This document shows, piece by piece, positions 12,139 to 26,115 of a DNA stretch of 64,000 nucleotides. Location: the NCBI RefSeq assembly GCF_000308835.1, contig NZ_BAGN01000078.1, forward strand, positions 1-64,000, given 5' to 3'. Position 1 is the stretch's first letter. Every line of letters starts with the position of its first letter. This stretch comes from Nocardia vinacea NBRC 16497 (GTDB lineage: Bacteria; Actinomycetota; Actinomycetes; Mycobacteriales; Mycobacteriaceae). Under the pieces are notes generated by a model. It did not search any database, was not told where the DNA came from, and saw nothing but the letters and a program-made list of their open reading frames with translations. The position numbers and the translations under genes were made by a program.

Positions 12139-13395
12139 GTGGGCATATCACTCGTCAAGGGACAGAACGGTCCGCTTGCGACTTCGAATGTCGTTGTCTC
12201 GGTGCGATCCACCGCCGCAGCCGATGTCTCGGCATTATTGGTGACCGAAGCGGGCCGCGTTCGTACCGACGCCGATTTCGTCTTCTTCAATCAGCCGCAG
12301 GCACCTGGTGTCGAGTTGCGGTCGGGAACACCTGCTGCGCTGGCCGTTTCCGCGGCCCACGTACCCGTCGATATCGCCCAAATACGGGTGGTCATTACTT
12401 TGGACGAGTCTGGGGCAACTTTCGGGCAATTCGCGCCGCCGATTGCGATCGTTGCCGACGGATCCGGAAATACGCTCTACGAGTATGTAATCGATGGACT
12501 CGACAGCGAGTCCGTCGTCATCGCACTGGAATTGTATCGGCGTAATTCCGAATGGAAGGTCCGCGCGGTCGGGCAGGGTTATGCGGGCGGATTCGCCGCG
12601 CTGGTCACCGATCACGGCGTAAGCGTTGACGACGAGCCCGCGCCGGTCACTCCTCCCGCCACTCCGCAGGTTCGCACCGTCCCCGGCGAAGCCGCACTAT
12701 CCTTCGAGAAGCGCGCCAAGCTCGACCTGCGCAAACGCGAAGTCGCCAAGGTCCTGATCAACAAGAACGCCTTCGGAATTCGCGCCCGCGTCATCCTGGT
12801 GATCGACAAAACCCTGAGCATGAGCAGGCAATACAGCAAACAGGTCGTGCATCGCGTTGTGCAGCGGATGATCCCGGTGGCGACCCAGCTCGACGAGGAC
12901 GGCACCCTGGAGGCCTACCTCTACGCGCTGTCCTTCGCGAAACTGCCCGATATCACCGTCGAGCACGGCGAGGCATGGGCCCAGACCTTCCTGCACCTCA
13001 CCGGCACTCACCAGGGCATCGACTACGCCAGGATCGGCGGCCGCAATGACGAACTGCCGATCATGCGCGACATCATCGCCTCGCTACGACCCGGCGATGC
13101 GCCGACTCTGGTGCTGTTCTTCACCGACGGCGGCTTCGCGAAGAAGCGCGAGATCGCGGCACTCATGCGCGAAGCGTCCCGACTGCCTGCCTTCTGGCAG
13201 TTCGTCGGCCTCGGCAGAGCCAACTACGGCCTGCTGCGCACCCTCGACGAGATGTCGGATCGGGTCGTGGACAACGCGGGCTTCTTCGCCCTCGATGACA
13301 TAGACCAGATGGACGACGCACAGCTGTATGCCCGGTTGCTGGGCGAATTCCCGGACTGGCTACGCGCGGCCGGCCAAGCGGGCATCCTGCGCTGA
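12139..13395 (+). CDS. TerD-domain / von Willebrand factor A domain protein
   Basis: A 418-residue cytoplasmic protein. Residues 1-165 are a TerD domain (start GISLVKGQN, VVSVRS, DADFVFFNQP, and ELYRRNSEWKVRAVGQGYAGG). Residues 165-215 are a linker. Residues 215-410 are a VWA-like fold (VILVIDKTLSMS, TLVLFFTDGGF, FWQFVGLG). TerD domains bind calcium in tellurium-resistance/chemical-stress systems. The metal-ion site is atypical: DKTLS replaces the usual DxSxS, so the first Ser is Thr. GTG start at 12139 has AAGGAG six bases upstream. The arrangement resembles TerF-type proteins of ter gene neighbourhoods, but no other ter genes adjoin. Function here is unknown; envelope stress or defence against invaders has been proposed for such proteins. 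Confidence 0.85.
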   Translation: MGISLVKGQNGPLATSNVVVSVRSTAAADVSALLVTEAGRVRTDADFVFFNQPQAPGVELRSGTPAALAVSAAHVPVDIAQIRVVITLDESGATFGQFAPPIAIVADGSGNTLYEYVIDGLDSESVVIALELYRRNSEWKVRAVGQGYAGGFAALVTDHGVSVDDEPAPVTPPATPQVRTVPGEAALSFEKRAKLDLRKREVAKVLINKNAFGIRARVILVIDKTLSMSRQYSKQVVHRVVQRMIPVATQLDEDGTLEAYLYALSFAKLPDITVEHGEAWAQTFLHLTGTHQGIDYARIGGRNDELPIMRDIIASLRPGDAPTLVLFFTDGGFAKKREIAALMREASRLPAFWQFVGLGRANYGLLRTLDEMSDRVVDNAGFFALDDIDQMDDAQLYARLLGEFPDWLRAAGQAGILR

Positions 13396-21426: not shown

Positions 21427-23388
21427 TCAGATCCGGGCACCCTTGGCGCGGTTGCAGGCGCGGCAGAGGATCTGCAGATTGGTCGCACTCGTCGCACCGC
21501 CGCGGCTGAGCGGGATGATGTGATCGAATTCCAGGTAGTGGCCGTCGCCGCATTCGACGCATTTACCGCCATCACGTTGCCACACCTCGGCCTTGACTTC
21601 CTGCGGGATGCTGCGCGTGTCGCGCTGGCCGGGCGTGAGCACCAGGCGTTTGGCGACCCGCAGCGCACCTTCCAGTGCGGCCGCGACGTAATCCGGATCG
21701 TCGACATCGAAGGTGGCGCCACCGCGCGACGAGGTCGCCGCGACGACCACCGAACGCTGCTCGATATGCACCGAAACCACCCGGTTCCACGGCAATTCGG
21801 TGCCGGTATCGGTACCGACGAACCGCAGCTTCTTATTGCTGGCGATCAGCCTGCCGTCGGTGAACTTCGGCCCTTTGGCGAGCCGGCGGACGTGCACGGC
21901 GGGCAGATCCACGTGCACCTTCTCCTCCGGATCCAGATGCAGGCCGGGCGTTCGCACCACCGGCAGATCCCCGCCGCGCAACCGCGACAGGGTGCGCCCG
22001 CGATACATCCGCCTGCGCAGATCCTCGACCAGCGGTCCGCTGAGCGCCAGCTCTTCGATCGCGTACTCGAACGCCTCGAACTCGGTCTGCTCGATCTCGC
22101 CATCCGCGAATGCGAAGGCGACCAGTCGCTCGACGTAGGTGAGCGCCACATCCCGCAGTGCCGCCCGGCCCAGGCCCTCATCGATTCGCTGATACCGCAA
22201 CGACGCCCACAGCGCATCCCACTCCGCGCCGCGCGGTCCGGCTGCGGTCAGCGCCCGCCAGGCCTGGGTATGCCAGTGCGTCAGGAATTCCCCGATTTCA
22301 CGCTCGCAACTCGGGCACGGCGCGAGACCGCCGAACAGCTTGCGGCGCCGGGGATTTCCGCACCGCTCACAGCTGCGTGGGCCGGGCTGCCGCCGTTGGT
22401 ATGTGGCGCTGGTCCATTCGGACCCATCCCACCAACGTAGCCGCGAGGGATGCTCGGGATCCGAATGCCAGTCCGCGCGTTCGGGATTCGGCGGTGGTGG
22501 TATCGGCGGTTCGACCTCGTGCCGCTGCCGCCGAAGGTCGACCGGCCTGCCTGGTCGCGGGCGGGCAGGCCGTTCGTCGGCCGAGTCGGCGCGATGGTCG
22601 GCTCGGTCCCGGGGCCCGGTGGCGGCGGTGTGGTGCCCAGCCTGATCTCCACGGTGTGCGCCGAGCGTCCATGGTCGGGCCGGTGCTTCATCGGGCCGAT
22701 CATGCTGTCCAGTCGGGTCGGTATGGGTTCGGCGGGCGTCGTCCTGGTCCGAGGGTGCGGTGTCGAGCTGCTGGGGACCGGGCGACCCGGCCGGCGCTGT
22801 GCCAGCCGAGACACGTTGCTGCATTGGGTAAGTGGGTATCCGAGCCGGGTGTGCCGCGTGCGGGCGATCAGGTGTCGGCTCGGCGGGGCCGTCGATGGTG
22901 ACGCCGAACTCGGTGACGAGACCGGGAAGCCCACTGGCCCAACCCTGGCCGATGGCGCGGAAGCGCCACTGGCCGTCGCGGCGGTAGAACTCGCCGAACA
23001 TCATCGCCGATACCGCATCGGGATCGGTGATCTCGAACCGGGCGATCGGCCCGTGGGCGGCCTCGATGGTGATGGTCAGATCCGCGATATCGCCGAAGGT
23101 GCCGTCGTCGATCGATCCGGCGACCACGATGCGCGCCACATCCGATTCGGTGCGCGGTAGCGACACGCTCAGGCGCGCCGTCCCCGGTGCGGGTTCCTGG
23201 TCGAGCGTCACCGCCTGCGACATATGTCGCGGTGCATTGAAGAACACCAGATCCCGGTCGGTGCGCACCGTCCCCGCCTCCGCCAGCAACAGCGCGTGCG
23301 CATCCACCGCATGCCCCGACCGCCATGAAACAACCACGGCAAGAAGGGAAGTCGGCACCGCCGCATTGGCCCCTTTACTGAGTTTCAT
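21427..23388 (-). CDS. TerD - DUF2510 - zinc ribbon - HNH endonuclease fusion protein
   Basis: A 653-residue multidomain protein. Residues 1-165: TerD domain (MKLSKGANAAVP, DLVFFNAPRH, GEFYRRDGQWRFRAIGQGWASG). Residues 165-290: disordered Pro/Arg/Asp-rich linker. About 295-325: DUF2510 (WHSDPEHPSRLRWWDGSEWT). About 330-370: Cys4 ribbon (CERCGNPRRRKLFGGLAPCPSC). About 370-470: helical domain with ADGEIEQTEFEAF, resembling TerB-type helices. Then a beta domain with HVDLPAVHVRR and SNKKLRFVG. The C-terminus, about 595-653, is an HNH nuclease (CVECG, LEFDHIIPLSRGG, NLQILCRACNRAKG). ATG at 23388 begins at the TerD domain; 59 more upstream codons are unlikely. A stress- or defence-linked DNA nuclease is inferred. 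Confidence 0.85.
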   Translation of the reverse strand: MKLSKGANAAVPTSLLAVVVSWRSGHAVDAHALLLAEAGTVRTDRDLVFFNAPRHMSQAVTLDQEPAPGTARLSVSLPRTESDVARIVVAGSIDDGTFGDIADLTITIEAAHGPIARFEITDPDAVSAMMFGEFYRRDGQWRFRAIGQGWASGLPGLVTEFGVTIDGPAEPTPDRPHAAHPARIPTYPMQQRVSAGTAPAGSPGPQQLDTAPSDQDDARRTHTDPTGQHDRPDEAPARPWTLGAHRGDQAGHHTAATGPRDRADHRADSADERPARPRPGRPVDLRRQRHEVEPPIPPPPNPERADWHSDPEHPSRLRWWDGSEWTSATYQRRQPGPRSCERCGNPRRRKLFGGLAPCPSCEREIGEFLTHWHTQAWRALTAAGPRGAEWDALWASLRYQRIDEGLGRAALRDVALTYVERLVAFAFADGEIEQTEFEAFEYAIEELALSGPLVEDLRRRMYRGRTLSRLRGGDLPVVRTPGLHLDPEEKVHVDLPAVHVRRLAKGPKFTDGRLIASNKKLRFVGTDTGTELPWNRVVSVHIEQRSVVVAATSSRGGATFDVDDPDYVAAALEGALRVAKRLVLTPGQRDTRSIPQEVKAEVWQRDGGKCVECGDGHYLEFDHIIPLSRGGATSATNLQILCRACNRAKGARI

Positions 23389-23536
23389 CGTGCTCGAACT
23401 ATGCCACGAACCACCGACACGCCGACTTCTGCGGTCCGTACCTTCGGCGGTGCGAGCGAGTGCGCACCGACGCGACACAAACCGGTCGGTCGGGGATATC
23501 CGGCCTCGAGTGCCATGGGTGCGGCAGAGTGAAGGG

Positions 23537-24030: not shown

Positions 24031-26115
<2,085 letters not shown>

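Follow-up and report, generated by a model that had tools for sequence, protein, structure and literature searches.

Why should a nuclease be carried on the same polypeptide as a TerD domain, and when would the cell make such a protein? The question is raised by a gene in a 64,000-nucleotide stretch of DNA from Nocardia vinacea NBRC 16497 (contig NZ_BAGN01000078.1, positions 1 to 64,000; hereafter the window) that encodes a 653-residue protein starting with a TerD domain and ending with an HNH nuclease domain. A preliminary description had read the protein as a DNA-damaging effector or restriction-like defence protein triggered by stress or metal signals. In this work, the promoter, domain structure, constraint and distribution of the gene are examined, and from these sequence features we propose that it may encode a damage-induced DNA nuclease that is controlled by Ter-type sensor domains and serves DNA processing under genotoxic stress, a proposal that we hold at a little short of an even chance.

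The promoter bears most directly on when the protein would be made. The LexA-independent DNA-damage promoter has the consensus tTGTCRgtg-8nt-TannnT (PMC5656591), and promoters of this type were later attributed to PafBC (PMC6789036). The site upstream of the fusion gene closely fits the mycobacterial PafBC promoter as judged from its letters, matching the consensus in TGTCGGTG and in the 8-nt spacer, and the TGG directly before the -10 box would make this an extended -10 element. The site ends so close to the ATG (9 nt) that the mRNA is predicted to be leaderless or nearly so. In the window, ten relaxed matches to the promoter pattern were found, two of which are followed after 4-11 nt by an ATG or GTG; TGTCGGTG is present in the site of the fusion only.

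The site is retained in orthologues. Among the 13 proteins of the host genus that were read first, 12 have TGTCG-N11-CATAGT, evenly spaced and 8-9 nt upstream of the start codon, the exception being a paralogue (L035). In the first 12 orthologues the motif columns are identical in 12/12 sequences, compared with a mean of 5.9/12 over the 38 preceding columns. A larger sample of the genus, which partly overlaps the first 13 genomes, gave 46 listed matches, of which 30 were made into loci. In these 30 loci a start could be read for 28 orthologues, and every one of them has TGTCG-N11-CAnnnT 9-10 nt upstream of it; 23 of the 28 read CATAGT and five have variants (L160, L161, L162, L164 and L165). 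The other two loci are L158, in which the start lies beyond the sequence read, and the paralogue L167.

The same pattern marks genes of DNA repair elsewhere in the host genome. TGTCRGTG-N8-YAnnnT has 68 matches in the 10.15-Mb genome as opposed to 8 for the reversed pattern. Apart from the site of the fusion there are 67 matches, and 27 of these precede a frame of at least 80 amino acids that starts 5-9 nt downstream, in 17 cases at 7 nt, which is the distance expected for a leaderless start. Thirteen of the 27 near-start genes belong to repair, replication or recombination families (NCBIfam, E <= 1e-10): Rpn, PcrA/UvrD, Fpg, RmuC, SbcD, deoxyribonuclease IV, LigA, an AddB/Cas4-like nuclease (a weak call), PolA, DNA polymerase IV, HolA, RecQ and DnaX. 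Several of these matches are below the model cut-off because the frames are partial. Additionally, five genes were selected by eye from the remaining 40 sites, and NCBIfam confirmed RecA, UvrB, UvrA and RadC and named the fifth as PhoH-like. Candidates for the regulator itself are encoded in the same genome, where PafB- and PafC-like WYL proteins, one of them with the PafC helix-turn-helix, adjoin a gene of the Pup-ligase family. The genome has 14 TerD loci, some of them cut by contig ends, and in the sequence read around them the fusion is the only one with the motif.

Two side observations were made on these sites. The pattern traces a mostly leaderless DNA-damage regulon across loci L040-L069 and L077-L113, in which the recA gene (L040), over the 295 residues read, gives its top score to the intein-containing RecA model. 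The other 14 near-start genes (for example L043, L082, L098, L107, L109 and L110) have no repair-type family name, NCBIfam giving them an unrelated family or none; by their position these could be new damage-response genes.

The protein is read from a single open reading frame with its ATG at 23388 and its stop at 21427-21429, and the order TerD, long disordered linker, DUF2510, Cys4 ribbon, TerB-like helices and HNH nuclease given in the preliminary description is confirmed, the TerB-like label with moderate support, and its coordinates are exact (Table 1). The alignment comprises 15 homologues: 13 proteins of the host genus and two Deinococcus proteins. The TerD model PF02342 is matched by all 15 and gives 105.9 bits for the window protein against a curated cut-off of 25.3. 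HNH model PF01844 is matched at residues 610-652 with 48.5 bits against a cut-off of 21.4 (E 9.8e-13), and the catalytic residues H623, N637 and N646, the HNH cysteines C610, C613, C642 and C645 and the knuckle cysteines C340, C343, C358 and C361 are invariant in 15/15, so that the nuclease motifs are intact rather than degenerate among the homologues. The final catalytic position is Asn, making the site one of the H-N-N type, and such sites are common among active HNH enzymes. DUF2510 is present in 13 of the 15 and is replaced by a gap in the two Deinococcus proteins. For the linker, disorder is predicted, as described before, from a predicted local distance difference test score (pLDDT) under 50 at residues 147-293.

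Between the knuckle and the nuclease the assignments depend largely on structure prediction. An AlphaFold2 model of residues 303-653, for which three loci were used besides the window protein, has a mean pLDDT of 79 and shows five helices followed by a seven-stranded barrel capped by a C-terminal helix and then by the HNH domain. We call the helical stretch TerB-like on moderate evidence: the profile PF05099 is matched by 3/15 homologues (best E 1.4e-4) and the window protein is not among them. The barrel aligns to MTMR2 (1lw3; VIA-align Z 13.3, root-mean-square deviation (rmsd) 2.1, 97 residues) and, tied with it, to Lam6 (5yqr; Z 13.2, rmsd 2.0, 94 residues), and the modelled domain ahead of HNH thus belongs to the PH-like superfold. 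This domain, at about residues 480-584, had been overlooked in the preliminary description. The rows returned by Foldseek and VIA mostly concern the PH-like part of the model, and missing TerB rows among them prove nothing. The full-length AlphaFold2 model is weak (pLDDT 60), and therefore no contacts between domains are claimed.

The acidic GEGxGDD loop, which carries the Ca2+ ligands of canonical TerD domains, is absent from the TerD domain of the fusion and is found in 4 of the 14 TerD domains of the same genome. A Ca2+-triggered nuclease is not supported, as the acidic loop is missing. The suggestion of a stress or metal trigger is supported for stress, in the form of a promoter of the DNA-damage type, and not supported for metal.

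Table 1. Features of the TerD-HNH fusion gene and its predicted promoter in the window.
Feature	Position	Strand	Basis
TerD-DUF2510-Cys4-TerB-like-PH-HNH protein gene, 653 aa	21427..23388	-	Open reading frame, Pfam, orthologues
TerD domain, residues 2-161, without acidic GEGxGDD loop	22906..23385	-	Pfam E 2.3e-30
Disordered fast-evolving linker, residues 162-302	22483..22905	-	pLDDT, pN/pS
DUF2510, residues 307-337	22378..22470	-	Pfam E 8.5e-6
Cys4 knuckle/zinc ribbon: C340, C343, C358, C361	22306..22371	-	Invariant in 15/15 homologues
Five-helix TerB-like bundle (moderate confidence), residues 359-471	21976..22314	-	AlphaFold2; Pfam TerB in 3/15 homologues
PH-like (GRAM/PH superfold) domain, residues 480-584	21637..21951	-	AlphaFold2 model and structure alignment
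HNH nuclease domain, residues 592-653; H623, N637, N646; Cys4 610/613/642/645	21430..21615	-	Pfam, alignment
Predicted PafBC/RecA-NDp-type DNA-damage promoter TGTCGGTG-N8-CATAGT, extended -10 TGG	23398..23419	-	9 nt before ATG

The domains have evolved at very different rates. Mean identity over 12 orthologues is 0.86 in the HNH domain, 0.69 in the PH-like domain, 0.61 in TerD, 0.59 in the helical part and 0.37 in the linker, and towards the Deinococcus proteins it is 0.69 on average in HNH and 0.18-0.33 in the remaining parts. A crude ratio of nonsynonymous to synonymous differences (pN/pS), each value being a mean over five orthologues, is 0.05 for HNH, 0.26 for TerD and 0.73 for the linker. 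As pN/pS differs by domain and is lowest in HNH, the gene is maintained and no chance frame. By these measures the HNH domain is the most constrained part of the protein, and the profile is typical of an active nuclease carried by a functional scaffold.

The gene is a constant member of its genus. A search with the whole protein gave matches to the nuclease core in 12 of 13 host-genus genomes, the host itself included, with TerD and the core in one frame in all 13 proteins read from them, and the core from Cys4 to HNH was found in 39 of 40 genomes of the genus. Outside the genus it is rare: an order-level sample had the core in 4/200 genomes (three of the host genus, the host included, and G210) and a phylum-level sample in 3/396, all of the host genus with the host among them. 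The copy in G210 is a standalone protein of 333 residues that is identical in sequence to one of Mycobacterium sp. 852002-51163. The statement of rarity rests on these two samples because the single contig-wide genome scan gave three loci only, with no Deinococcus among them. In 6/6 extended orthologue loci a gene resembling aminodeoxychorismate synthase (pabB-like), related to that at window positions 24031-26115, lies within about 1.2 kb of the fusion; L135 has the fusion in inverted orientation, with a further frame separating the two genes. Copies in L130, L131 and L115 have no pabB-like neighbour. From the kept locus and the genus-wide core it follows that the gene has long been resident in the chromosome; a second subfamily occupies different loci.

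Several observations on relatives and neighbours are recorded here. A TerD domain fused to a TerF-like vWA domain is encoded at window positions 12139-13395 (+), at a distance of 8 kb from the TerD-HNH gene. In G005, G007 and G009 the fusion likewise has a TerD match some 7-8 kb away, and in G008 a TerD-vWA relative is 6.8 kb off, so the pair is loosely syntenic. The frame is broken in four relatives: L147 and L160 (at the junction of TerD and core), L037 and L075 (within HNH). L037, on contig 375 of G009, is an extra copy of pseudogene-like appearance, and the breaks could be decay or assembly error. In G001 a paralogue without the damage promoter (L130, 9193-10992 (-)) faces an endonuclease V-like gene and adjoins ispG-, rseP- and dxr-like genes, as judged by eye.

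How might the sensor and the nuclease work together? It is predicted that PafBC, activated by single-stranded DNA, would act with RNA polymerase at TGTCGGTG-N8-CATAGT to give a leaderless or near-leaderless mRNA, which would be made alongside recA, uvrA, uvrB and other repair genes. In the protein, TerD and perhaps the TerB-like bundle may sense a Ter signal, proposed to be a nucleoside-like metabolite, or another Ter protein, and this would release or position the nuclease. The linker would allow TerD to reach its partner. Contacts to protein, membrane or nucleic acid may be supplied by DUF2510, the Cys4 knuckle and the PH-like domain. With its intact and conserved H-N-N site, the HNH domain would cut DNA, most likely aberrant, damaged or foreign, and through this cleavage the Ter stress response would have its DNA-processing arm. 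The architecture, the constraint and the promoter sequence with its conservation are observed directly, and PafBC-mediated induction by DNA damage, cleavage by HNH and control by TerD and TerB are the three parts that we infer for this mechanism.

Work on other Ter proteins is consistent with parts of this proposal. In a comparison of jumbo phages, the Ter phosphoribosyltransferase (PRTase) and HAD enzymes are held to make a signal, and TerB/TerD "might sense the signal" (PMC7824862); elsewhere it has been suggested that TerD may bind specialised nucleotide derivatives (PMC7159879). A minimal ter operon raised the survival of E. coli under ultraviolet C (UVC) light about 5-fold (PMC8123226), and TerB, TerD and TerZ increase in D. 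radiodurans after irradiation (PMC5731708). The D. radiophilus fusion gene heads a series of ter genes (TerD, TerD-vWA, TerD, TerD, DUF475) that is divergent from genes for StiP-PELOTA, HAD, PRTase_2-TRSP and ATPgrasp_Ter. This protein and that of D. radiodurans came from a plasmid collection, in which they were the 2 of 17 core-matching records that cover at least 80% of the core. In the host genome, StiP is found above the Pfam cut-off on contig C196, amid HAD, PRTase, TerC-like and TerD frames recognised by eye.

Other results weigh against the proposed damage-induced, Ter-controlled nuclease. The promoter of the window gene has two deviations from the consensus, a G instead of t before TGTC and a C instead of T opening the -10 box, and the motif was absent, by eye, upstream of the paralogue L035/L167, of the viral-database (IMG/VR) copy L115 and of both Deinococcus genes. 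The authors of the E. coli UVC study propose a role in oxidative stress and not in direct repair (PMC8123226). The window gene is not located in the ter cluster of its genome, where none of the five neighbours scanned, up to about 2.9 kb to either side, is related to Ter genes, and the D. radiodurans fusion is surrounded by unrelated genes. StiP is absent from 3 of the 12 nuclease-bearing genomes of the genus (G002, G010 and G012), so that there is no strict dependence on the Ter metabolite; the sole nuclease-less genome of the 13 (G006) is also without StiP. Finally, TerD appears dispensable for some uses of the module, because standalone cores without TerD exist: one in Mycobacterium with an integrase and phage-like genes nearby (L074) and one in Aldersonia directly downstream of hsdM-hsdS-hsdR-like genes (L075), both contexts being read by eye.

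A stricter form of the proposal would make the protein a signal-gated nuclease with two keys and a sensor of a new type, in which PafBC makes it upon damage and a Ter nucleoside-like signal, perceived through TerD and the TerB-like bundle, triggers cutting. It would then be a guardian of the genome throughout the genus and a defence module elsewhere. This form is conceivable, if on the doubtful side.

The alternative that survives best is a nuclease of DNA repair or replication stress that has no ligand gating, where the HNH domain trims DNA that is damaged or stalled and is only placed or assembled by TerD, DUF2510, the PH-like domain and Cys4. The promoter evidence applies to it identically, the core is genus-wide with its place kept and StiP is not required. 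The best solved relative of the nuclease by sequence is ZRANB3 (5mkw, E 0.001), a DNA annealing helicase and endonuclease. However, TerD and TerB are viewed as signal-sensing parts (PMC7824862), the D. radiophilus copy lies within a ter operon beside biosynthetic genes, and the long variable linker after TerD would resemble the tether between a regulator and its effector. In light of these features we regard an ungated nuclease as somewhat unlikely, while allowing it serious weight.

It could also be supposed that the protein is an anti-phage or anti-plasmid nuclease, acting by McrA-like type IV restriction or by abortive infection and induced by the single-stranded DNA that replicating phages or plasmids expose. 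Matches to a type IV restriction model of PADLOC (E 1.2e-4) and to McrA in the PDB (E 0.007) cover the HNH part only. Among defence systems, Shango and Bunzi are listed with a TerB domain (PMC10952713), and mention has been made of an anti-phage system that depends on TerD and has a McrBC-like restriction-modification part (PMC3710099). The surroundings of L074 and L075 fit such a role, as does the IMG/VR contig L115, where the full fusion lies about 3.7 kb from a tyrosine integrase (by eye). Two genes between integrase and fusion in L115 (1514-4194) weakly match the PADLOC models BnzB (1.4e-7) and PDC-M09A (3.9e-8) and may form a TerB-linked defence pair; neither of them was given a name by Pfam. 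For the window gene, by contrast, a restriction-like role is not favoured because the core is genus-wide and the place is kept, unlike a mobile defence gene, and the damage-type promoter also makes it less likely; a mobile restriction gene at this locus was set aside on the first two grounds. No modification or partner gene was found among the five neighbours scanned, and the five PADLOC models that matched the protein reach residues 588-652 only. Two scans of IMG/VR, with the protein and with the core, gave L115 and the HNH-only L116 alone, and no phage record reached 80% query coverage. A further candidate, gene 29 of the Mycobacterium prophage prophiGD13-2, was returned by tblastn as a PH-HNH relative and rejected, its translation being, by eye, a different membrane-anchored HNH protein. 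We thus consider a defence function improbable for the window gene, and the earlier description as restriction-like may apply to the module in settings such as L115 and L075.

That the protein is a nuclease-dead scaffold, whose HNH fold serves as a DNA-binding or zinc module, is suggested by the Asn at the final HNH position and is very improbable given the invariant active-site and cysteine residues, the low pN/pS of the domain and the frequency of H-N-N sites in active enzymes.

The reading of a damage-induced nuclease under Ter-type control can be placed among known systems. Ter stress-response systems share the TerD domain and, on moderate evidence, the TerB-like bundle with the window protein, which differs in having sensor and nuclease in one chain, a damage-type promoter and a position apart from the ter cluster. 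A 2012 paper by Anantharaman, Iyer and Aravind on these systems reportedly names DNA-processing in its title, and it may mention the fusion; in the literature searched, no study of a TerD–HNH fusion was found, the Deinococcus proteins included. The latter, WP_162177623.1 from D. radiodurans and WP_126352148.1 from D. radiophilus, are annotated as "TerD family protein". By alignment they have TerD, Cys4, TerB-like, PH-like and HNH parts in the same order with HNH domains that are 69% identical on average, and they differ in lacking DUF2510, in their short linker and in showing no PafBC-type motif; inspection by eye upstream of L018 and L019 likewise gave no Deinococcus damage box (RDRM). With the PafBC regulon, the mycobacterial LexA-independent damage response, the gene shares TGTCGGTG-N8-nAnnnT, which is kept in orthologues and carried by recA, uvrA and uvrB, with C replacing T at the first -10 position; no TerD member of this regulon was seen in the excerpts searched. 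McrA and ZRANB3 share the HNH module by their PDB matches, and the likeness is limited to that part of the protein. Signal-gated nucleases are known as effectors linked to CARF and SAVED domains. Like these, the window protein would join a putative small-molecule sensor to a nuclease; unlike them, its putative sensor is TerD, and ligand and gating are hypothetical. The fusion would bring a protein of the Ter network, with sensor and nuclease combined, into a DNA-damage regulon.

ter genes have been linked to resistance to tellurite, colicins, phages and UV. A fusion of TerD to a nuclease offers a measurable output of TerD, namely cleavage of DNA with or without candidate ligands, and the promoter points to a defined regulator, PafBC. 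If the proposal is true, the DNA-damage response and Ter signalling, which are usually studied apart, would be linked in one protein. This would help to account for the response of ter genes to DNA damage in Deinococcus, and it would add a new type of sensor to the signal-gated nucleases of bacterial immunity.

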